From the NCBI RefSeq assembly GCF_014854695.1, contig NZ_CP027557.1:1302001-1366000 (forward strand): DNA of 64,000 nucleotides, in the 5' to 3' direction. Of this stretch, positions 31,889-58,206 are shown piece after piece. Positions within the stretch are counted from its first letter, which is position 1. Each line of letters starts with the position of its first letter. The translations under genes and the position numbers were made by a program. Source of the DNA: Rhodococcus rhodochrous. Its GTDB lineage: Bacteria; Actinomycetota; Actinomycetes; Mycobacteriales; Mycobacteriaceae. The notes beneath the pieces were generated by a model. The model saw only the letters and a program-made list of their open reading frames with translations. It was not told the origin of the DNA and searched no databases.

Positions 31889-32764
31889 CTAGGTGGTGCC
31901 GCGACGACGCGCCTCGAGCGTCTCGACGGCCTGCTCGCGCAGCAGCCGCAGGCGGGCCAGCGGACGATCGGACTCGGGGCTGCGCCAGTAGCCCGAGGCG
32001 TCGAGCATCGGCTTGGCGATGCCGAGTCGCTTCGACACGGCGCGCAGTTCCTTCACGATCGACGCCTCACCGGCGATCCACATCCACCCCTCGCCGCCGC
32101 GCGGCGCACCCGACTCGACGGCCTCGGCGAGCACGGTGGCGTCGGAGACGCCGGGGCGGCGGTGCACCCACGTCACGCCCGCGAGATCGGACTGTTCCTC
32201 CTGCGGACCGTCGACCAGCGCGAAGACGTGCATCGGCACCGTGCCGCCGTAGGTCTCGACGAAGCGACCCAGCGCGGGAAGCGCGGTCTCGTCGCCGGCG
32301 AGCAGCCACCAGTCGGCGCCCTGCGGCGGGATGATCGCGACCTTGGGTCCCGCGAGATGGAGCACACTGCCGGGTTCGGCGGTGCGGGCCCAATTGCCGG
32401 CCGGGCCGTGGCCGTGCAGGACGAAGTCCAGATCGAGTTCCCCGGCCACGGGATCGAAGCGACGCACCGTGTAGGCGCGGGCCACGGGTGCGGGTTTGCG
32501 AGGCCAGTGCAGGTGCCCGTCGTGCTGTTCGGGCAGGGCCGGGGTGTCGCTGCCGGGTTCGGGCAGGAAGATCTTGACGTAGTCGTCGGCACCCTCGGTG
32601 GTGAACGCCGGGGCGTCGTAGTCGCCGCTGCGGAAGGCGCCGAGCTGCTCGCCGCCCAGGGTGATCCGACGCATCCGCGGTGTCACGTCCACCGCGCGGA
32701 GCACGGTCAGGCGCCGCAGGACGATGGGCAGAGAGACGCGGGTCGGGGGCGTCGTCACCGGCAT
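31889..32764 (-). CDS. Siderophore-interacting protein (ViuB-like ferric-siderophore reductase)
   Basis: 291 residues of the SIP/ViuB family. The flavin-binding segment is RAYTVRRFD in the N-terminal beta barrel (about 105). The NAD(P)H-binding domain starts with WWLLAGDETALPAL. Such proteins release iron from imported ferric siderophores in the cytosol. The ATG at 32764 has a GAAGGAG site. It is divergent from the first NRPS gene, sharing an iron box at 32823-32841, so uptake and synthesis should be co-induced. Confidence 0.93.
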   Translation of the reverse strand: MPVTTPPTRVSLPIVLRRLTVLRAVDVTPRMRRITLGGEQLGAFRSGDYDAPAFTTEGADDYVKIFLPEPGSDTPALPEQHDGHLHWPRKPAPVARAYTVRRFDPVAGELDLDFVLHGHGPAGNWARTAEPGSVLHLAGPKVAIIPPQGADWWLLAGDETALPALGRFVETYGGTVPMHVFALVDGPQEEQSDLAGVTWVHRRPGVSDATVLAEAVESGAPRGGEGWMWIAGEASIVKELRAVSKRLGIAKPMLDASGYWRSPESDRPLARLRLLREQAVETLEARRRGTT

Positions 32765-32901: not shown

Positions 32902-43524
<10,623 letters not shown>

Positions 43525-43543: not shown

Positions 43544-43599
43544 AGCTAGTCGGTATGCGCCCGCGGCTCGTCGCGGCATCCGTGGGAGAGAGAAATTCG

Positions 43600-46500
43600 A
43601 TGCAGTCGGTGTATCCCGTCACGCGCGCGCAGCGGACCATCTATTTCGGTCATCAGCTCGACGCCACCGGGCACCTCTACAACACCGGCATGTACACCGA
43701 GACCATCGGCGACGACATCGACATCGACCGGATGATCACGGCGATCCACTCGGTGCTCGACGTCGCGGAGACCCTGCACGTCAACTTCCACATCGACGCC
43801 GACGGCAACGTCGTCCAGGTCCCGCGCGCGACCCGCGAATGGGACCTGCCCGTCATCGACTTCCGCGGCGAGGACGACCCGGCGGCGGCGTCCGACCGCT
43901 GGATGCGCGAGACGATGAGCGAACCGCAGGATCTCGCCCGCGACCTGCTGTTCCGATTCGCCATCCACCGCCTGGCCGACGACACGGTGCGGCTGTACCA
44001 GCAGTACCACCACATCGTGAACGACGGCTACGGCATCGGCCTGGCGACCACCGCGATGACCAAGGCGTACGTCGAGGGAAAGGGACCCGACCGCGCCACG
44101 GAGTGGACCCTCGAACGATACGTGCACGTCGACGAGGAGTACGTCGCGAGCGAACAGCGCGAACTCGACCGCCGCTACTGGCTCGACGAACTCGCCGACC
44201 TCCCGCAGGTGACGCGCCTGCTCGGCTCGGGTCGCCTGTCGAGTCCCGGCGAACTCGTCGCCTGGTCGCACATCGACGCCCACGGACGCGGCCGGCTCGA
44301 GCGGTACGCCAAGGCCCATGGCACCCGGCCCGCCACCGTGCTCATCGCCCTCCTCGGTGCCTATCTGGCCCGGGCCACCCGCCGTCGCGACGTGGTGATC
44401 AGCCTGCCCACGACCGCGCGTGGCACCCGCGAACTGCGCACCGTACCCGCGATGGTCGCCAGCGTCCTGCCCCTGCGTTTCGACGTCCCCGACGACGCGC
44501 GTCTGGCCGACGTCGCCGAGGTGATCGACGGCAAACTGCTCGGCCTGCTCAAGCACGGCCGGTACCGCGGTGAGGATCTCGGTCGCGAACTCGCCGAGAT
44601 CGACCCGGACTGGCGGCCCCCGACCGTCGGTGTGAACATCATGCCCGCAGCTGCCTCGCGGTACTCGGTCGGCCGGGAATCGCAGGCGCACATGCTGTCC
44701 TCCGGGCCGGTCGGCGAACTCGAATTCATCCTCGTGCTCGAGAAGGCCGGGCACCCGATCGAGATCGGACTGCGCGGTCACGCCGACGACGCACCGCTCG
44801 CGCAGCGCTGCGCCGCCGATCTCGACGACTTCCTCGCCGCGATCCTCGACGACCTCGACGCGCCGCTCGGCACCTTCGACGTCGCCCCGGCACCGTCGCT
44901 CGCCGAGAGCTCCGAGGCCGATCGGATCGGCGTTGCCGCCGGGCACGAAGACACCATTGCGGGGCCGCTCGCGCTCATGCCGGCCACCGCGCGACGCCGC
45001 GACGCCGGAGTTTCAGTGGATGCCGGCCTGCGCGAATACCGCATCCCGGCAGCGGAGGATCTCACCGAGGACGCCGTGGTCGCCGCCGTCGCCGCCGTGG
45101 TCGCGCACCACCCGGCGCTGCGGACGACTCTCACCGCACCGGCCCCGGTGCTGTGGCTGCTGTCGGTGAACGACACCGCCGCCGTCGACGCCCGGACCCT
45201 CGTCGCGGACGCCGCGCTGCCCGCGGGGACCGCGACCGCCGACCTGCCCCTGCGCCCCGACGCCACCGCCGGCCGGATCCTGACCGCGGTGCGGCTCACC
45301 GGTGCGGACGAGACCGCCGGGGAACTGGTGTTCCTCGCCCCTGCCGGACTCGTCGACGAGACATCCTGGTCGATCGTCACCGCCGACCTGCACCGTGCCC
45401 TGCGCGCCGCCCGGCGCGGCACGCAGATCGCACTGCCGCCCGTGCCCACCTCACCGGCCACCCACGCCCGCGTCTTCACCGAGCAGGCGGCCTCGCCGCA
45501 GCGACTCGCAGAACTATCCGACTGGATGACCACCGTCGCACCCGGCGCCGAGTTCGCCGCAGCGGCGGCCACCGGCCGCACACGGACCCCCGTGACCGTC
45601 ACGCTGACCGACGACGAATACGCTACGGCGACAACCGCGATGGCCGGACTCGTCTCGGGTGACGCAACGGATGTGTGGACCGCGGTGACCGCAGCCGCGG
45701 TCGCGAACACCCGCGAGAGCGCCGAGGGTGAACTGCTCGTCGACATCGTCCGCGACGGCCGCGTCGCCCTGACCCCCGACGCCGATCCCACCCGCACCGT
45801 CGGCGCGCTGGACTGGACGACGCCGGTACGACTGGCGCTCGCCCCCGATCCGCTCGACGCCCTGCGCACCGCGAAGGAACGCCTGCGCGCCGCCCCCGAC
45901 CGGGGCATCGGCTGGCCGATGCTGCGCTACGCCAACGTCCAGGCCGGGCCGGCCCTCGCGCCGCTCGGGCAGCCGCAGGTGCTCGTGCGGAGCGGCGGAG
46001 ACCGCATCGGCGACTACCTGCTCGACATCCACGTCGAACGGGGAATCGACGGCGCCGCGGTGCATCTCACCGCCGACGAGGCGCTCGACCCCGATCTCGT
46101 GGTCCGGCTTGCCGAGGCATGGCGCGCGGCGTTCGACGACCTGCTCGGCCGCGCCGACGCAGCCGCGGGAAGAACCTCTCTCACCCCGTCCGATCTCGGA
46201 CACGTCACGCTCACGCAGAACGAGATCGACCGCGTCGCACGGATCGCGCCGGCGCGGATCGAGGACATCTGGCCCCTGTCGCCGCTGCAGCGCGGCCTGT
46301 ATTTCCAGTCGGTCTTCGACTCGTCGAAGGACATCTACACCGCCCAGTTCTCGCTCGACTTCGGCCACCGCCTCGACGTCGCGCGCCTGCGCCGCGCCGC
46401 CGCACGCCTGCTCGCCGAGAATCCCACCGTGCGTGCCGGTTTCACCGACGACGGCCTGATCGATCCGGTGCAGTTCATTGCCGCCGCGGATCTCGAGGTG

Positions 46501-49500
46501 CCGTTCACCGAGGTCGACCTCACCGACCTCGCCCCCGCCGAACAGCAGGCCCGCGCCGAGAAACTGATCGAGGAGGATCGGCTGCAGCCGTTCGACCTCG
46601 CGTCCCCGCCGCTGTGGCGCATGCTGCTGCTGCATCTCGACGGCATCGACCGTCTCGTCGTCAACCGCGAATTCATCCTCTGGGACGGCTGGTCCGGCGC
46701 GCTGTTCGTCGACGAACTTCTCGCCCGCTACGCCGGTGACGAGATCGCCGCGCCCGAAGCAGGTTTCACCGACTACCTGCAGTGGCTCGCCGCCCGCGAC
46801 CGCGCCGCCGCCGAGCAGGCCTGGCGCGACGAGTTCGCCGATTTCGACAAGCCCACCCTGCTCGCCGGATCCACCCGCGACCGCGCCGCCATCGTGCCGC
46901 TGCGCATCGAGTCGTACATCGACGAGACGCTCACCGCGGCACTGCGTGACCGGGCCCGCAGTACGGGCGTCACCCTCAACGCGTTGATGAACGCCGTCGT
47001 CGGCCTGCTCCTCGCCGCCGAATCCGGCAGCACCGACGTCGTGTTCGGCTCCACCGTCGCCGGGCGGCCCACCGAGATCGTCGGACTCGACCGCGTGATC
47101 GGCATGTTCCTCAACACCGTCCCGGTGCGGGTGCGTCTGTCGGGTGCCGAGACCGTCGCGGAGCTGCTGCGCCGCATGCAGGACGAGTACGCCGACCGCA
47201 TGGAGTTCGAATATCTCGGGCTCGGCGACATCCTCCGCGCCGTCGGCCATTCCGAACTGTTCGACACCCTGTTCGTGTTGCAGAATTTCAAGGACGCCGA
47301 CGAGATGGCCCGGCAGTCCGCGCGGCACGACATCGTCGCCGAGGACAGCCTCGACCACACCCACTACCCCCTCGCGATCGTCGTGTCGCCGGGGCAGACC
47401 ATGCACGTCAAGATCGACTACCGGCCCGACGTCGTCGACGGAGCGCGTGCCCGGGCCCTGCACGACCGCTTCGTGGCGCTGCTCGGCTTCGTCGCCCGCG
47501 GCGTCGATCTGCCGGTCGCGTCCGTGCCGGCACTGACGGCCGCCGAGCATGCTGTCACCGAAGCCCGGCTGCGCGCCGAGATCCCCGAGGTCGAGGACGC
47601 CACCGTCGCCGAGATGCTCATCGCGCGCGCCGCGACCGACGCCGACCGCATCGCCCTCGTCTCCGGTGAGCAGAGCTGCACCTACGGCGAACTCTCCGGA
47701 CGCGTCGAAGCGCTCGCCCGCACCCTCATCGACGGGGGAGCGGGACCCGAGACCATCGTGTGCCTCGGCCTGCCCCGCAGCATCGACACCGTCGTCGCGC
47801 TCTTCGCGATCCTGCGCACCGGTGCCGCCTATCTGCCGCTCGAACTCGACCAGCCCGACGAACGGTTGCGTACCGTCATCGACGACGCGCAACCGGCGCT
47901 GTTCCTCACCACCACCGCAGTGCAGGATCGTCTCGGCCTGCCCGCCGACCGCAGCATCCGCCTCGACGAGCCCCTCACGGCGGATACCGCGCCGCTGACC
48001 GACGCCGAACTCGGCGCGTTCGCCCCGGGCCGCCCGGGCCGGCTCGAGCACCCCGCCTACGTCATCTACACCTCCGGGTCCACCGGCAAGCCGAAGGGTG
48101 TGGTCACCCCCTATCGGGGCCTGACCAACATGCAGCGCAACCACCAGGACGAGATCTTCGATCCGGTGGTCTCGTCGGTGGACGGACGCCGGATGCGGGT
48201 CGCGCACACCGTGTCGTTCGCCTTCGACATGTCGTGGGAGGAACTGCTCTGGCTCGTCGAGGGCCACGAGGTGCACGTCTGCGACGAGGACCTGCGACGC
48301 GACGCCACCGCGCTCGTCGAGTACTGCAACACCCACGCCATCGACGTCGTCAACGTCACCCCCACCTACGCGACGCAGCTGATCGCGGACGGCATGCTCG
48401 ACGAGGGGCCGGGACAGCACCGCCCGCCGCTCGTCCTGCTCGGCGGTGAGGCCGTGTCGGATTCGGTGTGGACGCGCCTGCGCGAGACCGGCGGCACCCT
48501 CGGGTACAACCTCTACGGCCCCACCGAGTACACGATCAACACCCTCGGCGGTGGCACCGACGACAGCGCGACCCCCACGGTCGGCGTCCCGATCCGCGCG
48601 ACCCGCGCCTACATCCTCGACCCGTGGCTGCGACCCGTCGTCGACGGTGTCGTCGGCGAGTTGTACATCGCCGGTGTCGGTCTCGCCCGCGGCTATCTGA
48701 ACCGCTTCGGCCTCACCGCCGACCGGTTCGTCGCCGACCCGTGGTCGGCCGGTGGTCGCATGTACCGCACGGGCGACCTCATGCGCCGACGGTCCGACGG
48801 CAACCTCGACTATCTCGGCCGCGTCGACGACCAGGTCAAGATCCGCGGCTACCGCGTCGAACTGCACGAGATCGCGGCCGTGCTCGAGGAGCATCCCGAG
48901 GTCGGCACCGCCGCGGTGATCGCCGTCGACGACCCGCTCGTGCCGGGCACGAAACGACTTGCCGCGTACGCGGTTCCGGTGGGAGATGGTGATCCGTCCG
49001 ATCTGTCCTCGCGGCTCGTCGCCCACCTGCGTGCCCAGCTGCCCGACTACATGGTCCCGGCCGGAGTGCAGCTCATCGACTCCGTGCCGATGACCGTCAA
49101 CGGCAAGCTCGACACCCGCGCCCTGCCCGAACCGCAGGCCGCGACCGGCCTCGGTGGACGCGCCCCGCGCACCGAGACCGAGAAGGTCCTGTGCGAGATC
49201 TTCGCCGACGTCCTCGGCATCGACGAGGTCGGCGCCGACGACGACTTCTTCGAACTCGGCGGGCACTCGATGATCGCCATGCGGATCATCGGCCGCATCC
49301 GCTCCGAACTCGGCGTGGACGTCACCATCCGCGACCTGTTCGAGGCCCGCAGCGTCGAGGAACTCGCCCGCCGCATCCCCGGCGCCGCAGCGGCGCTCCC
49401 GCCGGTCACCGCGCGGACGCGCCCCGACCGGGTGCCGCTGTCGGCCGCCCAGGAACGCCTGTGGCTGCTCCAGCAGTTGCAGGACGACAGCCTCGCCTAC

Positions 49501-52500
49501 CACTACGCGCACGTCGCCCGTCTCGACGGTGCGGTGGACGCCGATGCCCTCGCTGTTGCGGTCGCCGACGTCGTGGAACGTCACGAGAGCCTGCGCACCG
49601 TCGTCGAGTCCGAGGACGGCACGCCCTACCAGCGAATCCTGTCCACAGCCGAGGCCGTGCGCTTCGACCTGCACGAGACGGAGTCCGAGGACGCCGTCCG
49701 GGCGCTGCTCACCGAGCGGCTCACCGCGTCGTTCGATCTGCGCACCGACCCGCCGCTGCGTGTCGTGCTGGTGCGCGTCGCGCCCGACCGGCACGTCCTC
49801 GCGGTGGTGCTGCACCACATCGCGACCGACGAATGGTCGGACGCGCCGCTGCTCGGCGACCTCACCCGCGCCTACCTCGCGCGGTCGGCCGGTGCGGCAC
49901 CAGAGTGGTCGCCGCTGCCCGTCCAGTACGCCGACTACACGCTGTGGCAGCGCGAACTGATCGAGGCCGGCCGGATCGACACCCAGATCGACTACTGGAC
50001 CGACACTCTCGCGCAGTTGCCCGACGAGATCGTCCTGCCCACCGACCGGCTCCGCCCCGCGCGGCCGACGGGCGCGGCGGGCAACACCACCGCGACGGTC
50101 CCCGCCGACATCGCCGTCCGCCTGCGAGCGGTCGCGGATGCCCTCGGCGGCACGATGTTCATGGCGCTGCACGCGGCCGTCGCGGCACTGCTCTCGCGGC
50201 TCGGCGCGGGCGACGACATCGTCGTCGGTACCCCGGTCTCGGGCCGGTCCGACACCGTCCTCGACGAACTCGTCGGCTTCTTCGTCAACACCCTCGTGCT
50301 GCGCACCGACCTGTCCGGCGAACCCACCTTCGCCGAACTCCTCGACCGGGTGCGCGAGACCGACCTCGCGGCGATGGCGCACCAGGAGGTGCCCTTCCAG
50401 CAGCTCGTCGAGCGACTCGCACCGCCGCGCGTCGAGGGACGGAACCCGCTGTTCCAGGTGATGATGAGCTACCTGCAGCGCCCCGCGCAGCTGCCCGACC
50501 TGCTCGGTGTGCCCACCCGCTGGGAGCCACTGAGCAACGTCCGCGCCAAGTTCGACCTCAACCTCACCTTCGTCGACGCCCCGGACACCGGCGAGGTCGC
50601 CGTGTCGGTGGAGTACGCGACCGACCTGTTCGACGCCACCACGGCCGACACGTTGCTCGCTGCGCTGCTCACGCTGCTCGAGCGGGTCGCGAGCGCACCC
50701 GAGGCCCGGATCGGCGACGTCGCGATCCTCGACGCCGACGAGACCGCGGGACAGCTCGCCGTGGGCACCGGCGAGCGCGTCGACTTCGCTCTCGTCCCGC
50801 TGAGCGAGGTGCTCGCGCGCAGCGCCGCCGAGTACGCCGAACGGCCGGCTCTCGTCGCAGCCGACCACACCCTCACCCATGCTGCGCTCGACGCCGCCTC
50901 GAACCGCCTCGCGCGCGAACTCGTCGCGCTCGGTGCCGGCCCGGACGCGATCGTCGCGGTCGCGGTGCCCCGCTCCGTGGAACAGGTCGTCGCGATCCAC
51001 GCCGTCGTGAAGTCCGGTGCGGCCTACCAGCCGATCGACACCACGCTGCCCGACGCGCGCATCGAGTACCTGCTCGGTGACGCACGTCCGCGAGTCGTGC
51101 TGACGCGCAGCGATATCGCCTTGCCCGGTGACCATCCGCGACTCGACCTCGACGACGCCGAGGTCCGTGCCCGCATCGACGCCCGTAGCCCGGAGCCGGT
51201 CACCGACACCGACCGGATCGCGCCGCTGATCCTCGACCACCCGCTCTACGTCATCTACACCTCGGGGTCGACGGGTCTGCCCAAGGGCGTCACCGTGTCG
51301 CACCGCGCCGTGGCGAACCGGTTGGAATGGGTGCGCCGCGAACTGCCCGTCTCGCCCGACGACCGGGTCCTGCTGCGCACGCCCGCGACCTTCGACGTGT
51401 CGGTGTGGGAGTTGTTCGCACCGTTCGTCGACGGTGCGAGCGTCGTCGTCGGCGGACCCGACGCGCACCGCGATCCCGTCGAATCGGCGACCCTGCTGCG
51501 CGACGGGAACATCACCGTCGCCCATTTCGTGCCGTCGATGCTCGAGGAGACCCTCGCCGTGTCCGCCACCGCGGACGCCGCGAACCTGCGGCGCATCGTG
51601 TGCAGCGGTGAAGCACTGTCGCCGCGCACCGTCGAACGCGCGGCGAAGGTGCTGCCGCAGGTGAAGGTCCACAACCTGTACGGCCCGACCGAAGCCGCGG
51701 TCGAGGTGACCCTCGACACCGACCCGGAGGCCCGGATCGGTTCGCGCACCCGCGGTTCCGTCATCGGACGGCCGGGCGCGAACGTGTGCCTGTACGTGCT
51801 CGACCGGTATCTGCGCCCCGTGCCGGCCGGCACCCCGGGCGAGCTGTACATCGGGGGAGTGCAGGTCGCGCAGGGCTACCTGCGACGCCCGGCGCTCACC
51901 GCCCAGCGGTTCGTCGCCGACCCCTACGGTGATCCCGGCGACCGGCTCTACCGCACCGGCGACCTCGCGCGGTGGGACGCCCGCGGTGACCTCGAATATC
52001 TCGGCCGCGGCGACGACCAGATCAAGCTGCGCGGTCTGCGCATCGAACTCGGCGAACTCGAAGCGGCTCTCGACGCCGTCGACGGTGTCGCCCGTGCCGT
52101 AGCGGCGGTCAAGCCCGGTCCCGCCGGCTCTGCCGGTTCGACCGGCACAGGCGATTCGGTGCTCGTCGGATATGTCGTTCCTGCAGCGGGTGTCGCGGTG
52201 GATCCGGTGGCGGTCCGCGAGACACTCGTCGGACATGTGCCCGATTACCTGCTGCCCGCACGGGTTCTCGTGATCGACGCGGTTCCGACGAGTTTCAACG
52301 GCAAACTCGATCGCAGTGCCCTGCCGGCACCGGAGTTCGACACCGGATCCGGGCGGCAGCCGCGCACCGAACTCGAAGCGACGATCGCGACACTGTTCGC
52401 CGATGCGCTGGGACTCGACGAGGTCGGCATCGACAACGACTTCTTCGCGTTCGGTGGGCATTCGCTGGCCGCGATCCGGCTCGTCAACGCGATCCGCTCG

Positions 52501-55500
52501 GAGCTCGGCGTGGATCTGGCCCTGCGCACGGTCTTCGACGCCCCGACCGTGGGGTTGCTCGCGCAGCGGTGCGCGGCCGCCGGGCAGGGGTCGCCCCGAC
52601 CCGCGCTGGTCGCGGCCGACCCGCGACCGGCGATGGTGCCGCTGTCGTACGCGCAGCAACGCCTGTGGATCCTCGACCAGCTCGGAGCCCGCGGCGGCGT
52701 GTACAACGTGCCCGTCACGTGGCGGGTGCACGGACGCGTCGACGTCCCGGCACTCGAAGCCGCCGTGCGCGACGTCGTCCTGCGCCACGAGGCGCTGCGC
52801 ACGGTCTTCCCGAGCTCGGACGGGCAGGCCTACCAGATGGTGCTCACGCCCGACGAAGTCCGCGTGATCGCCGACCACCGTCCGGTCGACGCGGCCGATG
52901 TCCGCGATGCGCTGGCCGAGGCGATCGATCACCGCTTCGATCTGTCGGCAGAGCTGCCGGTGCGGTTGTCGGTCCTCGACGCCGGGGACGACACCGTGGT
53001 GGCACTGGTGATCCACCACATCGCCGTCGACGAGTGGTCGACCAAGGCGCTGCTCACCGACCTCGCCACGGCCTACGCGTTGCGGCAGGCGGGGCAGGCA
53101 CCCGAGTGGACGCAACCCACCGTGCAGTACGCCGATTTCACGCTGTGGCAGCGCGAACTGCTCGGCGACCCGGCGGATGTGGAGTCGCTCGCCGCGCGTC
53201 AGCGCGCCTACTGGCGCGACGCCCTCGCCGGCCTGCCCGAGGAACTGCCGCTGCCGACCGACCGGACCCGTCCGGCCCGCACCTCCTATCGCGGTGGCGC
53301 CGTGCCGTTCGCGCTCGACCCGGAGGTCGTGCGCGCACTGCGGGAACTCGCACGCGCACAGGACGTCTCGATGTTCATGGTCGTCCAGGCCGCGGTGGCG
53401 GTGCTGCTCGCGGCCTACGGTGGCGGCGAGGACATCCCGCTCGGCACCCCGGTCTCCGGCCGCGGCGACGCACAGCTCGAGGATCTCGTCGGCTTCTTCC
53501 TCAACACCCTCGTGCTGCGCACCGACCTGTCCGGCGACCCCACCGTCGCCGAACTGCTCGACCGGATCCGCCGCACCGACCTCGAGGCGTTCGACCACCA
53601 GGACCTGCCGTTCGAGCAGGTCGTCGACGCGGTGCTCGGCTCCGACCGATCCGTCTCGCGCGCCCTGCACCCGCTGTTCCAGGTGATGATCGTCTATCTC
53701 GTCGAACCCGATCCGCGCAGCGCGGGTGGGCTCACCGCGGGTGTCACCCCCGAACCGCACCCGATGGAGACCTCGAAGTTCGACCTGTCCTTCGACCTCG
53801 TCGAATATGCGGGCACCGACACCGTCGTCGGCGTCGTCGAGTACAGCTCCGACCTGTACGACCGCGGCACCGTCGAACGTCTCGCCGCCGGACTCGACCG
53901 GGTGCTACGCACGCTGGCCGGGGGAGAGGCACACCGGCGCCTGTCCGCCATCGACGTGCTGCCGGCCGACGAACGCGCCCGGCTCGAGCAGTGGCGGACC
54001 ACACCGGCACAGGCCACCGAAGCCGTTACCGTCGCGGACCTGTTCGACGACGCGGCCACCCGCCACCCGCACGAGACGGCGCTCGTGGCAGGCGATCTCG
54101 AATGGACCTTCGCCGACCTCGCGTCCCGGGTCCGCCGATGGGCGCGCCTGCTCGTCGACCACGGTGTCGCTCCCGAGACCCGCGTGGCGCTCGTGCTGCC
54201 CCGCACGGCCGACACGATCGCGGCGATGCTCGCGGTGCTCGTCTCCGGCGGCGCCTACGTCGCGCTCGAACCGCGCACTCCCACCGAGCGTCTCGCGACG
54301 ATCCTCGGCACTGCGGAGCCCGTCGTCGTGCTCACCACCGGAGAACTCGTGTCGTCGCTGCCCGCAGGGGACGCGCCGGTGCTCGCGCTCGACGACGAGA
54401 CGCTCGCCGAGCGGGTCGCCGGTTACGACGACGCCCCGATGACCGACGCGGACCGGCTCGCACCGTTGCGCGCAGACCACCCGGCCTACGTCGTGTACAC
54501 CTCCGGTTCCACCGGCACACCCAAGGCGGTCCTCGCCCTGCACCGCGGCCTGACCGAGCTGTTCCACAGCCACCGCGCCGATCTGTACGAACCGACGCAG
54601 GCACGGACCGGACGCGACCGGCTCCGGGTCGGCCACGCATGGTCGTTCGCCTTCGACGCGTCGTGGCAGCCGCAGCTGTGGCTCTTCGACGGCCACGCGG
54701 TGCACGTCGTCGACGAAAAGGTCCAGCGCGACCCGGCCGAGATGGTCCGCGTCGCCCACGAATCCCGCTGGGACTTCGTCGAGGTCACCCCGTCACACCT
54801 CGCGCAGCTGCTCGATCACGGACTCGCGGACGATGGACGGTGCCCGGCCTCGCTCGGTTTCGGCGGCGAGGCAGTCTCCCAACCGATGTGGGACCGGCTG
54901 CGCGGGCTGGACGGCGTGAGCGCCTACAACCTCTACGGGCCGAGCGAGAGCACCGTCGACGCGCTCGTCGCACGGGCCTCGGACGCGGACGCGCCCGTTG
55001 CCGGCCGACCGGTGGCCGGCACCCGGGCCTACATCCTCGACCGGTGGATGCGCCCCGCGCCGATCGGCGTGGAGGGCGAGCTCTACCTCGCCGGTCGTGG
55101 ACTGGCCCGCGGTTATCTCGCCGACCCGGGTCGCACCGCCGACCGTTTCGTCGCGGACACGATCGATCCGGAGTTCCCCGGTGATCGCATGTACCGCACG
55201 GGTGACCGGGCCCTGTGGACGCCCGACGGACACATCCGATACCGCGGACGCGGCGACGACCAGGTCAAGATCCGTGGTTACCGGATCGAGCCGGCCGAGA
55301 TCGAGACCGTGCTCTCGTCGCGACCGGACGTCGCGACCGCCATGGTGCTCGCCCGCACCGATCTCGGCGCGACGGCGCGTCTCGTCGCCTACGTCGTCCC
55401 GGCCGCCGGGTACACCCTCGATACCGAGATGCTGCGGCGGGCGGTGGCGCGGGTGCTGCCCGACTACATGGTGCCGTCGGCGACGGTCGTCCTGGACGCC

Positions 55501-55902
55501 CTGCCCACGCTCGCCAACGGCAAGATCGACCGCGCCGCACTGCCACGACCGGAACTCGCCCCTCGAGCGCACCGGGCACCGTCCACACCGGCCGAAGAAC
55601 TGCTGTGCGCCCTCGCCTCCGAGGTCACAGGCATCGAGCAGGTCGGTGTCGACGACGATCTGCTCGACCTCGGATGCGACAGCATCTCGGTGATGCGGAT
55701 CCTCGGCGGACTGCGCGCGGCCGGATACGTGATCGACGCCGAGTCGATCCTCACCGCCGGGTCGATCGGCGAACTCGCCGCAACCCTCCACGAACCGACT
55801 GATCGTTCCACCACAGAGCCGATTGGTTGTTCCACAACAGAGTCGACTGATTGTTCCACCACAGAGTCGATTGGTTGTTCCACAACAGAGGAGAATCGAT
55901 GA
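43600..55902 (+). CDS. Siderophore NRPS 2: C-E(degenerate)-C(degenerate)-A-PCP-C-A-PCP-C-A-PCP
   Basis: 4100 residues from the ATG at 43600 (GGGAGAGAG site); the in-frame ATG at 43555 has no ribosome site. Domains: EntF-like C1 with intact HHIVNDG (137); an epimerase-like region (about 430-890) with PAGLVDE at the HHxxxDG position (about 580); a second C region opening DIWPLSPLQRGLYF, with EFILWDG in place of HHxxxDG (about 1025); A1 (core 1487); PCP1 (LGGHS, 1886); C (HHIATDEWS, 2072); A2 (2549); PCP2 (FGGHS, 2951); C (HHIAVDEWS, 3139); A3 (3629); PCP3 (LGCDS, 4024). By-eye codes are DMENLGLINK (N5-hydroxyornithine), DVWHVSLVEK (Ser) and DAQEGGLVDK (unassigned; its A-domain resembles the hydroxyornithine one). 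There is no thioesterase. The C-terminus is a Thr/Ser/Cys tail encoded by a 24-bp repeat. Confidence 0.93.
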   Translation: MQSVYPVTRAQRTIYFGHQLDATGHLYNTGMYTETIGDDIDIDRMITAIHSVLDVAETLHVNFHIDADGNVVQVPRATREWDLPVIDFRGEDDPAAASDRWMRETMSEPQDLARDLLFRFAIHRLADDTVRLYQQYHHIVNDGYGIGLATTAMTKAYVEGKGPDRATEWTLERYVHVDEEYVASEQRELDRRYWLDELADLPQVTRLLGSGRLSSPGELVAWSHIDAHGRGRLERYAKAHGTRPATVLIALLGAYLARATRRRDVVISLPTTARGTRELRTVPAMVASVLPLRFDVPDDARLADVAEVIDGKLLGLLKHGRYRGEDLGRELAEIDPDWRPPTVGVNIMPAAASRYSVGRESQAHMLSSGPVGELEFILVLEKAGHPIEIGLRGHADDAPLAQRCAADLDDFLAAILDDLDAPLGTFDVAPAPSLAESSEADRIGVAAGHEDTIAGPLALMPATARRRDAGVSVDAGLREYRIPAAEDLTEDAVVAAVAAVVAHHPALRTTLTAPAPVLWLLSVNDTAAVDARTLVADAALPAGTATADLPLRPDATAGRILTAVRLTGADETAGELVFLAPAGLVDETSWSIVTADLHRALRAARRGTQIALPPVPTSPATHARVFTEQAASPQRLAELSDWMTTVAPGAEFAAAAATGRTRTPVTVTLTDDEYATATTAMAGLVSGDATDVWTAVTAAAVANTRESAEGELLVDIVRDGRVALTPDADPTRTVGALDWTTPVRLALAPDPLDALRTAKERLRAAPDRGIGWPMLRYANVQAGPALAPLGQPQVLVRSGGDRIGDYLLDIHVERGIDGAAVHLTADEALDPDLVVRLAEAWRAAFDDLLGRADAAAGRTSLTPSDLGHVTLTQNEIDRVARIAPARIEDIWPLSPLQRGLYFQSVFDSSKDIYTAQFSLDFGHRLDVARLRRAAARLLAENPTVRAGFTDDGLIDPVQFIAAADLEVPFTEVDLTDLAPAEQQARAEKLIEEDRLQPFDLASPPLWRMLLLHLDGIDRLVVNREFILWDGWSGALFVDELLARYAGDEIAAPEAGFTDYLQWLAARDRAAAEQAWRDEFADFDKPTLLAGSTRDRAAIVPLRIESYIDETLTAALRDRARSTGVTLNALMNAVVGLLLAAESGSTDVVFGSTVAGRPTEIVGLDRVIGMFLNTVPVRVRLSGAETVAELLRRMQDEYADRMEFEYLGLGDILRAVGHSELFDTLFVLQNFKDADEMARQSARHDIVAEDSLDHTHYPLAIVVSPGQTMHVKIDYRPDVVDGARARALHDRFVALLGFVARGVDLPVASVPALTAAEHAVTEARLRAEIPEVEDATVAEMLIARAATDADRIALVSGEQSCTYGELSGRVEALARTLIDGGAGPETIVCLGLPRSIDTVVALFAILRTGAAYLPLELDQPDERLRTVIDDAQPALFLTTTAVQDRLGLPADRSIRLDEPLTADTAPLTDAELGAFAPGRPGRLEHPAYVIYTSGSTGKPKGVVTPYRGLTNMQRNHQDEIFDPVVSSVDGRRMRVAHTVSFAFDMSWEELLWLVEGHEVHVCDEDLRRDATALVEYCNTHAIDVVNVTPTYATQLIADGMLDEGPGQHRPPLVLLGGEAVSDSVWTRLRETGGTLGYNLYGPTEYTINTLGGGTDDSATPTVGVPIRATRAYILDPWLRPVVDGVVGELYIAGVGLARGYLNRFGLTADRFVADPWSAGGRMYRTGDLMRRRSDGNLDYLGRVDDQVKIRGYRVELHEIAAVLEEHPEVGTAAVIAVDDPLVPGTKRLAAYAVPVGDGDPSDLSSRLVAHLRAQLPDYMVPAGVQLIDSVPMTVNGKLDTRALPEPQAATGLGGRAPRTETEKVLCEIFADVLGIDEVGADDDFFELGGHSMIAMRIIGRIRSELGVDVTIRDLFEARSVEELARRIPGAAAALPPVTARTRPDRVPLSAAQERLWLLQQLQDDSLAYHYAHVARLDGAVDADALAVAVADVVERHESLRTVVESEDGTPYQRILSTAEAVRFDLHETESEDAVRALLTERLTASFDLRTDPPLRVVLVRVAPDRHVLAVVLHHIATDEWSDAPLLGDLTRAYLARSAGAAPEWSPLPVQYADYTLWQRELIEAGRIDTQIDYWTDTLAQLPDEIVLPTDRLRPARPTGAAGNTTATVPADIAVRLRAVADALGGTMFMALHAAVAALLSRLGAGDDIVVGTPVSGRSDTVLDELVGFFVNTLVLRTDLSGEPTFAELLDRVRETDLAAMAHQEVPFQQLVERLAPPRVEGRNPLFQVMMSYLQRPAQLPDLLGVPTRWEPLSNVRAKFDLNLTFVDAPDTGEVAVSVEYATDLFDATTADTLLAALLTLLERVASAPEARIGDVAILDADETAGQLAVGTGERVDFALVPLSEVLARSAAEYAERPALVAADHTLTHAALDAASNRLARELVALGAGPDAIVAVAVPRSVEQVVAIHAVVKSGAAYQPIDTTLPDARIEYLLGDARPRVVLTRSDIALPGDHPRLDLDDAEVRARIDARSPEPVTDTDRIAPLILDHPLYVIYTSGSTGLPKGVTVSHRAVANRLEWVRRELPVSPDDRVLLRTPATFDVSVWELFAPFVDGASVVVGGPDAHRDPVESATLLRDGNITVAHFVPSMLEETLAVSATADAANLRRIVCSGEALSPRTVERAAKVLPQVKVHNLYGPTEAAVEVTLDTDPEARIGSRTRGSVIGRPGANVCLYVLDRYLRPVPAGTPGELYIGGVQVAQGYLRRPALTAQRFVADPYGDPGDRLYRTGDLARWDARGDLEYLGRGDDQIKLRGLRIELGELEAALDAVDGVARAVAAVKPGPAGSAGSTGTGDSVLVGYVVPAAGVAVDPVAVRETLVGHVPDYLLPARVLVIDAVPTSFNGKLDRSALPAPEFDTGSGRQPRTELEATIATLFADALGLDEVGIDNDFFAFGGHSLAAIRLVNAIRSELGVDLALRTVFDAPTVGLLAQRCAAAGQGSPRPALVAADPRPAMVPLSYAQQRLWILDQLGARGGVYNVPVTWRVHGRVDVPALEAAVRDVVLRHEALRTVFPSSDGQAYQMVLTPDEVRVIADHRPVDAADVRDALAEAIDHRFDLSAELPVRLSVLDAGDDTVVALVIHHIAVDEWSTKALLTDLATAYALRQAGQAPEWTQPTVQYADFTLWQRELLGDPADVESLAARQRAYWRDALAGLPEELPLPTDRTRPARTSYRGGAVPFALDPEVVRALRELARAQDVSMFMVVQAAVAVLLAAYGGGEDIPLGTPVSGRGDAQLEDLVGFFLNTLVLRTDLSGDPTVAELLDRIRRTDLEAFDHQDLPFEQVVDAVLGSDRSVSRALHPLFQVMIVYLVEPDPRSAGGLTAGVTPEPHPMETSKFDLSFDLVEYAGTDTVVGVVEYSSDLYDRGTVERLAAGLDRVLRTLAGGEAHRRLSAIDVLPADERARLEQWRTTPAQATEAVTVADLFDDAATRHPHETALVAGDLEWTFADLASRVRRWARLLVDHGVAPETRVALVLPRTADTIAAMLAVLVSGGAYVALEPRTPTERLATILGTAEPVVVLTTGELVSSLPAGDAPVLALDDETLAERVAGYDDAPMTDADRLAPLRADHPAYVVYTSGSTGTPKAVLALHRGLTELFHSHRADLYEPTQARTGRDRLRVGHAWSFAFDASWQPQLWLFDGHAVHVVDEKVQRDPAEMVRVAHESRWDFVEVTPSHLAQLLDHGLADDGRCPASLGFGGEAVSQPMWDRLRGLDGVSAYNLYGPSESTVDALVARASDADAPVAGRPVAGTRAYILDRWMRPAPIGVEGELYLAGRGLARGYLADPGRTADRFVADTIDPEFPGDRMYRTGDRALWTPDGHIRYRGRGDDQVKIRGYRIEPAEIETVLSSRPDVATAMVLARTDLGATARLVAYVVPAAGYTLDTEMLRRAVARVLPDYMVPSATVVLDALPTLANGKIDRAALPRPELAPRAHRAPSTPAEELLCALASEVTGIEQVGVDDDLLDLGCDSISVMRILGGLRAAGYVIDAESILTAGSIGELAATLHEPTDRSTTEPIGCSTTESTDCSTTESIGCSTTEENR
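55796..55891 (+). repeat. 24-bp tandem repeat (ABAB, four copies) at the NRPS 2 / binding-protein junction
   Basis: Units lie at 55796-55819, 55820-55843, 55844-55867 and 55868-55891. Units 1 and 3 are alike, and 2 and 4 are alike, giving a 48-bp higher-order repeat. Units 2 and 4 carry the dyad GTTGT-tcc-ACAAC. The array encodes the last 32 or so residues of NRPS 2, and the end of the fourth unit supplies part of the GAGGAG ribosome site of the next gene. Confidence 0.95.
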
Positions 55903-56942
55903 GGATCCACACGCGACTGCGCCGGATCGGCGTCGCCCTCGCCGCCACCGCCATGCTGGTCGGTGTCACGGCGTGCGGCTCGGGCACCGACAGCGGTAGC
56001 TCGTCCGGCAGCGCGACTGGGGCGAACGGCGAGTTCCCGGTCACCGTCTCCGGCAAGTTCGGCGACACGACCGTCGAGTCCGCCCCGACCCGGGCCCTGC
56101 CGCTGTCGCCGCAGGACGCCGACATCCTGCTGTCGCTGGGCGTCACCCCGCTCGCGCTCCCCGTCGATGCCCAGAACCTCGCCGCGACCGGCGGCACCGG
56201 TGTCTGGCCGTGGGAGGCCGAAGCGCTCGGCGCCGACGTCCCGCCGCTGCTGAACATGGACGGCGGTGCCACGGTGATCGCCGAGCAGATCGCCGCGCTG
56301 CAGCCCGACATCATCGTCTCCACCGGTTTCTGGGGACTCGAGCAGAACACCTACGATCAGCTCGCCGAGCAGTTCCCCGTCGTCCACTTCGACTACCGCG
56401 CCAACGGTGAGCCGTGGCAGGACTCCACCCGCAAGATCGCATCGGCCCTCGGCATCCCCGAGAAGGCCGAGGAGGTCATCGAGCAGGCCGAGGCCGATCT
56501 CGACGCCGCCAAGGAGCAGTACCCCGCACTCGAGGGCACGACCTACAACGCGATCATCGGCGACACCGGTGGCCAGCTGTCGGTGCTCGCCGCCGACGAC
56601 CGCGGCATCGGACAGTTCCTGAACTCCCTCGGCCTCGAGCTCAGCGAATACGCGAACACACTCCAGGTCGATGCCGACGGACGCGGTGTGCTGTCCTACG
56701 AGGAGATCTCGCAGCTCGACGCCGACCTGCTCGTCGTCGTCTCGCCCACCGGCGATCTCGGATACCTGACCAAGTTCGAGGCCTGGAACCGTCTTCCGGC
56801 CGTCGAGCGTGGCGCGGTCGTCTCGCTCGCCCGCAACACCGGCATGCCGAACGCCGTGGGCTTCCCGTCGGCGCTGTCGCTGAAGTGGGCCACCGCCGAG
56901 ATCGCCCCGATGCTCGCCGACGCCGCCGCGAAGTCCGAGTGA
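55899..56942 (+). CDS. Iron-siderophore ABC transporter binding lipoprotein (FepB-like)
   Basis: 347 residues. The signal peptide ends in a lipobox (VGVTAC, Cys at about 27), followed by a Gly/Ser linker and a class III (TroA/FhuD-like) periplasmic-binding fold (segments ESAPTRALPLSPQDADILLSLG, split at ALQPDIIVS, and YEEISQLDADLLVV). It should capture the ferric siderophore at the outer face of the membrane. The ATG overlaps the NRPS 2 stop by 4 bp (ATGA), so translation is coupled. Its ribosome site lies at the end of the 24-bp repeat array. The permease and ATPase partners are not in the window. Confidence 0.92.
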   Translation: MRIHTRLRRIGVALAATAMLVGVTACGSGTDSGSSSGSATGANGEFPVTVSGKFGDTTVESAPTRALPLSPQDADILLSLGVTPLALPVDAQNLAATGGTGVWPWEAEALGADVPPLLNMDGGATVIAEQIAALQPDIIVSTGFWGLEQNTYDQLAEQFPVVHFDYRANGEPWQDSTRKIASALGIPEKAEEVIEQAEADLDAAKEQYPALEGTTYNAIIGDTGGQLSVLAADDRGIGQFLNSLGLELSEYANTLQVDADGRGVLSYEEISQLDADLLVVVSPTGDLGYLTKFEAWNRLPAVERGAVVSLARNTGMPNAVGFPSALSLKWATAEIAPMLADAAAKSE

Positions 56943-56952
56943 CGGACCGGCA

Positions 56953-58206
56953 ATGAGCAACGGCGCCCTCTTCGATCTGCGGCCGCTGCGCGAGAGCGCG
57001 GCCTTCCGCCGGATCTTCATCGCTCGCACCATCTCGATCTTCGGTATCGGGATGCTCATGGTCGGCGTGCCGATCCAGGTCTACGACCTGACCGGATCGT
57101 CGCCGATGGTGGGTCTGGTCTCCGCGCTCGAAGGGGGTGCTGCGATCGGTGGCATGCTGCTCGGCGGCATGCTCGCCGACCGCTACAACCGCAAGTTCCT
57201 GATCCTGTTCGCCCGCACCGTCTCAGGCCTCACCTTCGTCGGACTGGCCGTCAACGCCGGTCTGTCGTCGCCCTCGGTGCCGGCGATCATCGCCCTGACG
57301 GTCGTCAACGGCCTGATCGGGTCGATCAGCATCGCGGCTCTGCTGGCGGTCGTGCCCACGCTCGTCCCCAAGGACCAGCTCGTCGCCGTCGGCGCGCTCA
57401 ACGTCCTCAGCGCCCGCGCCGGAGCCGTCCTGTCCCCGGCGCTCGGCGGTCTCGTGATCGCGACGTTCTCGGTCGCGTGGAACTACTGGGTGGCCGCGAT
57501 CGGCACCGCCGTGACCGTCACCCTGCTCTCGGGCCTGCCTGCGCTGAACCCGCCGAACTCGGATGCCGGGCACGACGCCGACACACCCTCGGAGACGGTG
57601 ACCGGCTTCCTGCGCCGCGAACGCGTCGTCGGTGGCGTGATGATCGCCGGTGTCGTCGCGATGCTCGGTGGCGGTGTGCTCGTGCTCGTCCCGGCCTTCG
57701 CCGACGCGCGCTTCGAGGGCAACGCCGTCGCCATCGGCGTCATGTATGCGGCGATCGCGCTCGGTGCCGCCGCAGCCACGGTCACCAGCGGGTGGCTCGG
57801 CCGGTCGGTGCGGCCCGGTCGCGTGCTGCTCACCGCACTGATCCTCGGATTCGTCGTCCAGGCACTGGTCGGCTTCACGTCCGTACTGGCGCTCACCGCC
57901 GTGCTGCTCGTGATCGTCGGTGTGTTCGGGGCCGTCCAGGAGGTGCTGCGCTACTCGCTGATCCAGACGCACACGCCCCACACGCTGCTCGGCCGGGTGA
58001 ACGGCCTGTGGTCCGCCCAGGAGGTCGCGGGCATGTCGGTCGGTGCGCTCGTCGCGGGCCTGTTCGGCGGCATCTTCGACGCCCCGGACGCGGTCGTCTG
58101 GTACAGCGCCGCGATGGCGGTCCTCGCGCTGCTCGTGACCCTGGTGCTGCGGCGCCTGCGCGGCGCGGCGGTGGAACCGAGCGCGTATCCGGTCACGGTC
58201 GAGTGA
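56953..58206 (+). CDS. MFS exporter, EntS-like siderophore efflux protein
   Basis: 417 residues with about twelve membrane helices. The N-terminal helices carry GMLADRYNRK, the MFS motif-A loop, and the central loop is short and acidic. The family (EntS/YbdA, MFS_3) exports enterobactin-type catechol siderophores. It is the last gene of the island, 10 bp after the binding-protein gene, so it is cotranscribed with NRPS 2. It has no strong ribosome site. The role as exporter is inferred from family and position. Confidence 0.9.
   Translation: MSNGALFDLRPLRESAAFRRIFIARTISIFGIGMLMVGVPIQVYDLTGSSPMVGLVSALEGGAAIGGMLLGGMLADRYNRKFLILFARTVSGLTFVGLAVNAGLSSPSVPAIIALTVVNGLIGSISIAALLAVVPTLVPKDQLVAVGALNVLSARAGAVLSPALGGLVIATFSVAWNYWVAAIGTAVTVTLLSGLPALNPPNSDAGHDADTPSETVTGFLRRERVVGGVMIAGVVAMLGGGVLVLVPAFADARFEGNAVAIGVMYAAIALGAAAATVTSGWLGRSVRPGRVLLTALILGFVVQALVGFTSVLALTAVLLVIVGVFGAVQEVLRYSLIQTHTPHTLLGRVNGLWSAQEVAGMSVGALVAGLFGGIFDAPDAVVWYSAAMAVLALLVTLVLRRLRGAAVEPSAYPVTVE

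Follow-up and report, generated by a model that had tools for sequence, protein, structure and literature searches.

The window, that is, the whole 64,000-nucleotide stretch of Rhodococcus rhodochrous DNA analysed here, contains two nonribosomal peptide synthetase genes, NRPS1 and NRPS2, accompanied by frames of siderophore-interacting, siderophore-binding and transporter types:

31889-32764, minus strand: siderophore-interacting protein (FAD_binding_9 and SIP)
32902-43524, plus strand: NRPS1, 3540 aa; starter-type C-A1-PCP-C-A2-PCP-C-A3-PCP-E, the E apparently dead
42703-42723, plus strand: HPIVADG in the C-terminal E-like domain of NRPS1; Pro replaces the second His
43555-55902, plus strand: NRPS2, open frame of 4115 aa; C1-E'-C2-A4-T4-C5-A5-T5-C6-A6-T6
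43603-44904, plus strand: C1, residues 17-450; starter-type (EntF/MxcG-like); HHIVNDG at 44008-44028
44953-46194, plus strand: E', about residues 467-880 (bounds approximate); epimerase-like; PAGLVDE at 45340-45360
46261-47559, plus strand: C2, residues 903-1335; His-free hydroxyornithine-type C; EFILWDG at 46669-46689
47620-49122, plus strand: A4; code DMENLGLIN
49180-49383, plus strand: T4 (PCP), presumed hydroxyornithine carrier
55851-56942, plus strand: open frame with Peripla_BP_2 (siderophore-binding protein type)
56953-58206, plus strand: MFS transporter

The A-domain codes of NRPS1 are DILQLGMVW (A1), IDTTFSSGD (A2) and DVWHISLVD (A3), which we take to be Gly-like, perhaps beta-Ala and Ser-like, respectively; the code of A4 is presumably of the N5-hydroxyornithine type. 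Within residues 1-1448 of NRPS2, Pfam finds three PF00668 stretches (the best at 903-1332), and AMP-binding starts only at residue 1358. Every A and PCP domain of the protein, three of each, lies downstream of C2, and no thioesterase was found in NRPS2 by Pfam. This bears out the first-pass annotation, which had described a C-E-C stretch with neither A nor PCP; a normal A-PCP is not there. Its view that the motif of C1 is intact and that the E-like domain has no catalytic motif also holds. In NRPS2, HHxxxD occurs at residues 152, 2087 and 3154 only, the single HH within residues 451-1340 is at residue 518 (HHPALRTTL), and the motif of E' and C2 is not recovered in any in-frame register.

Homologous clusters share this arrangement. 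C1-E'-C2 is complete in ten further genomes, and the eleventh (G295) lacks part of C1, where its contig ends. The C1 domains of these genomes are 0.50-0.97 identical to that of the window; the ranges for E' and C2 are 0.39-0.91 and 0.70-0.97. Rhodococcus sp. RD6.2 (L095) and R. globerulus (L098) carry C1-E'-C2. Counting the window, HHI(V/I)NDG of C1 is kept in all 11 genomes that cover this domain, E' has no HH at the motif place in 11/11, and the C-terminal E of NRPS1 lacks its second His in 11/11. The first-pass annotation names neither this second dead E nor the family of C2. In place of the HHxxxDG of canonical active C domains, C2 has EF in 12/12 genomes, window included, and the surrounding REFI(L/V)(W/F)DGWSGAL is kept in the same number.

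C1 has the features of a starter C domain (it is N-terminal, carries HHxxxDG and is nearest to starter C domains). It matches MxcG at 199.8 bits and EntF at 83.5 bits over the C region, below the cut-offs of these whole-protein models, but differs from both in having no A-PCP of its own module; E' comes next. MxcG is the best match of C1, as it is of the NRPS1 and G154 starter domains. The tree places the first C of the G154-type lines, which we take to be erythrochelin/rhequichelin-like, as the sister of C1 (96). The first A domain of these lines has the code DINYWGGIG, presumably formyl-hydroxyornithine-like. The earlier suggestion that an A-PCP was lost is plausible, as these C-A-T-E-C-A-T-E-C-A synthetases supply the closest relatives of C1 (their first C domain) and of C2 (their third). 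Omega of C1 is 0.13-0.23 against G005, G006 and G008, and 0.49 against G120.

E' scores 38.2 bits against TIGR01720 (cut-off 74.2), and its dN is the highest among the five C/E domains of NRPS2. The dead E of NRPS1 and E' have omega values of 0.26-0.33 against G005, G006 and G008 and are thus not neutral; E' looks dead yet still constrained. A structural scaffold, the role once offered for the dead domains, may be what E' provides, and C1 may do the same. The two dead E domains are sisters in a quick tree (support 98), a relationship that falls to 57/25, with a long-branch warning, in a careful tree from which the longest branches were removed.

The first-pass annotation had both later domains decayed. 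This seems to hold for E', but C2 is conserved and constrained. When the seven C domains of the two synthetases are ranked by dN, C2 comes lowest against G005, G008 and G120 and second lowest against G006; ranked by omega, it comes lowest against G005 and G008 and second lowest in the comparisons with G006 and G120. Against G120, omega is 0.34 for C2, not far from 0.47 for E' and 0.49 for C1. In the tree, all 26 His-free rows included group together as a single clade (support 100), next to canonical C domains. C2 lies inside this clade; it has no second His, a W before DG and a hydroxyornithine-code A domain next.

How general this is can be seen in a survey of 402 C-A rows, reduced to 329 unique modules by dropping 50 incomplete rows (none with the code DMEN(L/M)GLIN) and 23 duplicates; one more hydroxyornithine A domain (L275) has its C domain beyond the retrieved stretch. 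The C domain lacks the catalytic second His in 141 of the 146 unique modules with the code DMEN(L/M)GLIN (139/142 for DMENLGLIN and 2/4 for DMENMGLIN) and keeps it in 183/183 modules with other codes. Each of the five hydroxyornithine-code modules with canonical HH is the last module of its protein. In two cases, G800 and G844, a hydroxyornithine module upstream is His-free, which indicates that the C type is not dictated by the A code alone. Another A domain lies further on in the same frame in 94 of the 141 His-free modules, which means that chains must pass them. The second-His position of the clade is taken by L, F, V or M. Among 113 His-free rows, W precedes DG in 106, Asn occupies the position of residue 1142 in 110, and two positions ahead of the catalytic one R is found in 62, H in 36 and Y in 11. 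One of these conserved polar positions may supply a replacement catalytic residue. A single clade means a single origin, and the correlation between motif and code may reflect old co-inheritance of C and A rather than repeated evolution.

Judged by its sequence, then, C2 is a member of a widespread, conserved C type that precedes hydroxyornithine and not a wreck; a recent wreck was rejected on motif conservation, low dN and the module count. The missing second His is shared with lines whose preceding modules are ordinary, so its loss is older than the C-E-C arrangement. Decay of C2 after loss of the A-PCP, as had been suggested, does not fit this, and because C2 is not decayed, C1 need not have taken over condensation. 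We found no description of a His-free C domain before hydroxyornithine in the open-access literature, where most subscription papers are missing, as far as the available portions of PMC12971057, PMC4786211, PMC10212144, PMC5550956, PMC4519757, PMC7502451, PMC12305651, PMC4757757, PMC13126170, PMC11546977 and PMC6024995 go. In PMC10212144, the motif outside heterocyclization (Cy) domains is described as almost always HHxxxD.

We consider it probable that C2 is a working condensation domain which acylates the N5-hydroxylamine, giving a backbone hydroxamate without the second His, and that it sits beside dead E domains and a leftover C1. Together, NRPS1 and NRPS2 would make a siderophore peptide. 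C2 would take the chain from the last carrier of NRPS1, the Ser-PCP, and pass it to the N5-hydroxylamine of the T4-bound hydroxyornithine, and the backbone hydroxamate would result from this transfer. The second His of HHxxxDG would be dispensable, since a hydroxylamine is a strong nucleophile and is unprotonated at neutral pH; the clade has Leu, Phe, Val or Met there and, two positions earlier, a polar residue, for the most part Arg, His or Tyr. Neither E' nor the terminal E of NRPS1 would be catalytically active; if they are kept for anything, it would be to position carrier and C domains. C1 would be an intact starter-type C left behind by an internal deletion. The proposed hydroxamate linkage draws on siderophore product structures. 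In particular, L149 and G361, which we take to be exochelin-like, have His-free C domains before hydroxyornithine-code modules, presumably at the positions of the hydroxamate bonds of exochelin MS. The five modules with canonical HH count against this explanation. So does albisporachelin, from an Amycolatopsis, for which PMC6024995 reports an alpha-linked N5-formyl-hydroxyornithine; the linkage claim fails there should its synthetase combine this code with a His-free C domain.

It is very unlikely that C1 forms the bond onto hydroxyornithine while E' and C2 are dead remains, as first proposed. The kept motif and constraint of C1 and the absence of both His from C2 agree with such a division of labour, but C2 has a lower dN than C1 against each of G005, G006, G008 and G120. 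Moreover, other lines have a His-free C before hydroxyornithine with no second C alongside, leaving E domains out of account. Hardly any weight falls to C2 being a Cy domain with ExxxxDxxS as a variant of DxxxxDxxS. The first-position E, D and S are indeed present; against this, clade members elsewhere show HL, HF, QF or RF, the nearest tree relatives of C2 are canonical C domains, bacillamide Cy domains come last among 42 matched solved sequences, and the downstream code is for hydroxyornithine, not Ser, Thr or Cys. With ExxxxDxxS in the window where Cy domains have DxxxxDxxS, and with both the tree and the solved-sequence ranking against it, the Cy assignment was rejected.

The remaining alternatives concern what C1 and E' do. 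Possibly, although we doubt it, they only join NRPS1 to NRPS2, the dead E domains flanking the junction being the interface. The two dead E domains occur together in 11/11 genomes, window included, under the constraint given above, and a dead E (HP) also precedes the His-free C in the four Amycolatopsis lines that have an E-sized gap. There, however, the dead E and the following C share one protein, and docking leaves the kept HHIxNDG of C1 unexplained. Alternatively, C1 could acylate the free alpha-amine of the same hydroxyornithine that C2 acylates at N5-OH, bringing in a second aryl acid or peptide, which we regard as unlikely. An N5-linkage would leave the alpha-amine free, and both the MxcG match of C1 and its kinship with the first C of G154-type lines suit a tandem acylation. 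In 7/8 orthologs outside the genus, the NRPS1 frame has a DHB-AMP ligase 2.6-5.6 kb away (in the eighth it is on another contig of a fragmented genome), whereas within the window genus it is elsewhere (4/4). At 1e-150, no DHB ligase match was found in five of the eight genomes taken as having G154-type lines (three complete lines, five judged by frame length and C match), which indicates that the C type of C1 does not need DHB. A siderophore branching at one module, C2 making the hydroxamate at N5 and C1 reaching across the dead epimerase to acylate the alpha-amine, is distinctly unlikely.

A working C2 would resemble canonical C domains (PF00668; tyrocidine and surfactin synthetases) in Pfam family, similarity to solved C domains, the DG and WS of the motif and the place before an A domain. 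Canonical domains have the second His where the hydroxyornithine clade has a hydrophobic residue, and the clade is also unlike them in the W before DG and in the polar residue two before the catalytic position. Exochelin-like (G361, L149) and G154-type synthetases have a His-free C before a hydroxyornithine-code module, as NRPS2 does, but in them an A-PCP separates C from E and the E is intact, whereas NRPS2 has neither the A-PCP nor the motif of E'. The interface domain of siderophore beta-hydroxylases and the X domain of glycopeptide synthetases are inactive condensation-superfamily domains kept in assembly lines. Their lines recruit an oxygenase in trans; none was found among the 20 window frames searched by Pfam. 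According to PMC11546977, the stand-alone C domain ORF18 of streptothricin (HQxxxDM) works with an altered second His, as C2 would; it acts on an aminoglycoside acceptor, unlike the proposed C2.

The role of the second His of C domains is an open dispute, as PMC11546977 describes it. A large natural clade that lacks this residue at places open to a hydroxylamine acceptor amounts to an experiment already set up; the prediction is that condensation depends on the second His when an amine accepts the chain but not when a hydroxylamine does. Should this hold, genome miners could read from a single residue whether N5 or the alpha-amine links a hydroxyornithine, and the predicted siderophore structures of many actinobacteria would change. 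C1-E'-C2 also offers an example of dead domains long kept beside live ones. Separately, terminal C domains with HYxxxDEWS also lack the second His; no A domain follows them, and they stand outside the module count.

Pfam finds three condensation-superfamily stretches within residues 1-1448 of NRPS2, and neither an A nor a PCP domain before residue 1358, where AMP-binding begins. The gene and its first three domains are as follows:

NRPS2: 43555-55902, + strand, single open frame of 4115 amino acids
C1: NRPS2 residues 17-450, starter-type C domain, motif HHIVNDG
E': NRPS2 residues about 467-880, epimerase-like domain, motif PAGLVDE
C2: NRPS2 residues 903-1335, C domain lacking the second His of HHxxxDG (His-free), motif EFILWDG

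HHxxxD occurs in NRPS2 at residues 152, 2087 and 3154 only, and a second E-like domain, at the end of NRPS1, reads HPIVADG. Domain order and motif readings together show that the C-E-C stretch without A-PCP, proposed in the first-pass annotation, is real. Pfam finds no thioesterase in NRPS2. The protein ends in a repeat-bearing tail (CSTTES...; 55800-55902 of the window), and the next gene's open frame overlaps it.

The arrangement is old and its three domains had different fates. When the two top candidates in each of 401 genomes from the family were scored, 12 long matches (own included) separated at 780 bits or more versus 567 for the next; within the genus, an ortholog is present in 4 of 18 genomes, again counting our own. 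The same C-E-C, sought in these homologous clusters, is complete in ten of the 11 other orthologs, the C1 of G295 being interrupted by a contig end. With G295 set aside and the window included, all 11 genomes lack the His pair at the motif place of E', as the first-pass annotation had read it in the window, and all 11 have lost the second His from the terminal E of NRPS1. HHI(V/I)NDG of C1 is kept in 11/11 genomes and REFI(L/V)(W/F)DGWSGAL of C2 in 12/12 (window included in both). Compared with the G081 ortholog, the window has identities of 0.51 (C1), 0.39 (E') and 0.70 (C2).

Pairwise Nei-Gojobori omega was computed for the window against orthologs in G005, G006 and G008 and in the distant G120. 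Against the first three it ranges over 0.11-0.15 (C2), 0.13-0.23 (C1), 0.26-0.31 (E') and 0.26-0.33 (terminal E of NRPS1); against G120 the values are 0.34, 0.49, 0.47 and 0.50, respectively. All lie below one, so the dead E domains, too, remain under some constraint. The dN of C2 is the lowest among seven C domains in three of four comparisons and second lowest in the fourth (versus G006, only the third C of NRPS1 lies below it). Within NRPS2, none of the other four C/E domains reaches the dN of E' in any comparison; in NRPS1, two C domains exceed it versus G008 and one versus G006. The earlier view that C2 had decayed along with E' is thus not upheld, since decay would give the opposite pattern to a motif kept in every ortholog and a dN among the lowest.

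What C2 is instead emerges from the module that follows. The code of A4 is DMENLGLIN, which we take to be the N5-hydroxyornithine code of coelichelin. One account links a Glu at position 239 with the activation of hydroxyornithine and cites the first A domain of FxbC, the exochelin synthetase, as a case (PMC4786211). We surveyed C-A pairs from 16 genomes read at length, the best 80 of at least 587 relatives in named genomes, 16 places from a phylum sample (246 genomes), all 54 places from an order sample (397 genomes; 53 with a C domain in the fetched stretch), 11 plasmid records out of the 258 that matched, and our own genome's catechol cluster. Removing 50 incomplete rows (none with DMEN(L/M)GLIN) and 23 duplicates from 402 left 329 unique modules. 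The second His is missing in 141 of the 146 DMEN(L/M)GLIN modules (HL 93, EF 15, QF 13, HF 9, HV 4, QV 3, HM 2, RF 2) and kept in five. It is kept in 183/183 modules with other codes (HH 180, QH 2, PH 1), the survey having been drawn by likeness to A4 and these being mostly neighbours in the same lines. Before the plasmid and order samples, through which all five exceptions entered, the counts were 93/93 and 175/175. By these motifs, C2 is a member of a wide family of His-free C domains preceding hydroxyornithine-code modules. No account of such a rule was found in an open-access library, which covers few subscription papers.

Outside the count stand C domains with HYxxxDEWS, which lack the second His (replaced by Tyr) and have no A domain after them. 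Such a domain ends each of the synthetases G154_240 (residues 5191-5610) and G163_1122 (5168-5591), after a module with code DVFILGAVN, and is perhaps a cyclising release domain.

A quick tree was built from 131 C and E domains (HH exceptions left out). The 26 His-free rows included group as a single clade (SH-aLRT 100) next to canonical HH...DGWS domains, which implies one loss of the second His. C2 groups with the third C (93), and C1 with the first, starter C (96), of synthetases of the C-A-T-E-C-A-T-E-C-A type (G154-type); in a separate, careful tree without the longest branches, the grouping of E' with the E of NRPS1 has a low support of 57/25. Three features mark the clade in the 113 His-free rows scored: DG is preceded by W in 106, the position two before the catalytic one is mostly polar (R 62, H 36, Y 11), and Asn occupies the place of residue 1142 in 110.

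A further A domain follows in the same frame after 94 of the 141 His-free modules, so these are elongation modules, which a chain can pass only if they function or are skipped. In exochelin MS, beta-Ala and allo-Thr are joined to the N5-OH of hydroxyornithine, and diketopiperazine closure in erythrochelin requires a free alpha-amine on its hydroxyornithine. One His-free C (L149) comes after a module whose code, IDTLISSGD, we read as beta-Ala solely by its position in the line, and another (G361) follows a Thr-like module (DFWNVGMVH). Probably, then, the His-free clade, C2 included, makes hydroxamate bonds, and a hydroxylamine acceptor would render the second His dispensable.

The five HH exceptions are L256 (G844), the second module of L274 (G800), L290 (G071) and L291 (G052), both with DMENMGLIN, and the following plasmid locus:

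L230: NZ_CP013855.1 58303-64780, Pseudonocardia plasmid pLS2-1, hydroxyornithine code with HH C domain, last module, then an E domain

All five stand last in their proteins; this place alone is insufficient for HH, as several His-free modules also close their frame. A His-free hydroxyornithine module lies in the same frame as the exception in G800 and upstream, in a frame of equal length, in G844. That the same A code pairs with either C type favours the C domain having a role in the way hydroxyornithine is joined. Pyoverdine carries a C-terminal hydroxyornithine lactam, for which joining must use the alpha-amine of that residue. Kasichelins have such a lactam according to an excerpt of their description (PMC12305651). 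In G071 (L294) and G052 (L295), the synthetase with the HH last module also has a C-PCP unit without an A domain by profiles.

Dead E domains also occur elsewhere. Among 96 hydroxyornithine C domains (genomes common to both sources counted twice), a PCP precedes within 100 residues in 43 and at 101-118 residues in seven; an E-sized stretch intervenes in 28, and no PCP is in view in 18. Four of the 28, all from Amycolatopsis (L103, L111, L118, L169), have HP for HH in the E between PCP and His-free C, so a dead E can precede such a C within an unsplit gene.

C1 is of the EntF/MxcG type. In seven of eight orthologs outside the genus, the NRPS1 frame has a DHB-AMP ligase 2.6-5.6 kb away; in the window genome the distance is about 0.56 Mb. 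A single strong ornithine-monooxygenase match is present in every one of the 12 genomes, either on another contig or distant from the cluster. These occurrences point to a mixed catechol-hydroxamate siderophore, in which the starter C of NRPS1 would load the aryl acid. For C1, the possible roles are transfer of a second acyl group onto the free alpha-amine of hydroxyornithine or docking alone. C domains of its type do not generally use DHB as donor, as five of eight genomes taken as having G154-type lines have no DHB-AMP ligase match at 1e-150. In G108 (C16:18650-27601), the strong ornithine monooxygenase and a G154-type line are only a few kb apart, away from the NRPS1-NRPS2 pair. Our own genome holds a separate catechol-type cluster (contig C1:755000-794000; L226, L227) with a DHB-AMP ligase and two NRPSs, in which the module sharing the A6 code (DAQEGGLVD) also has an HH C domain.
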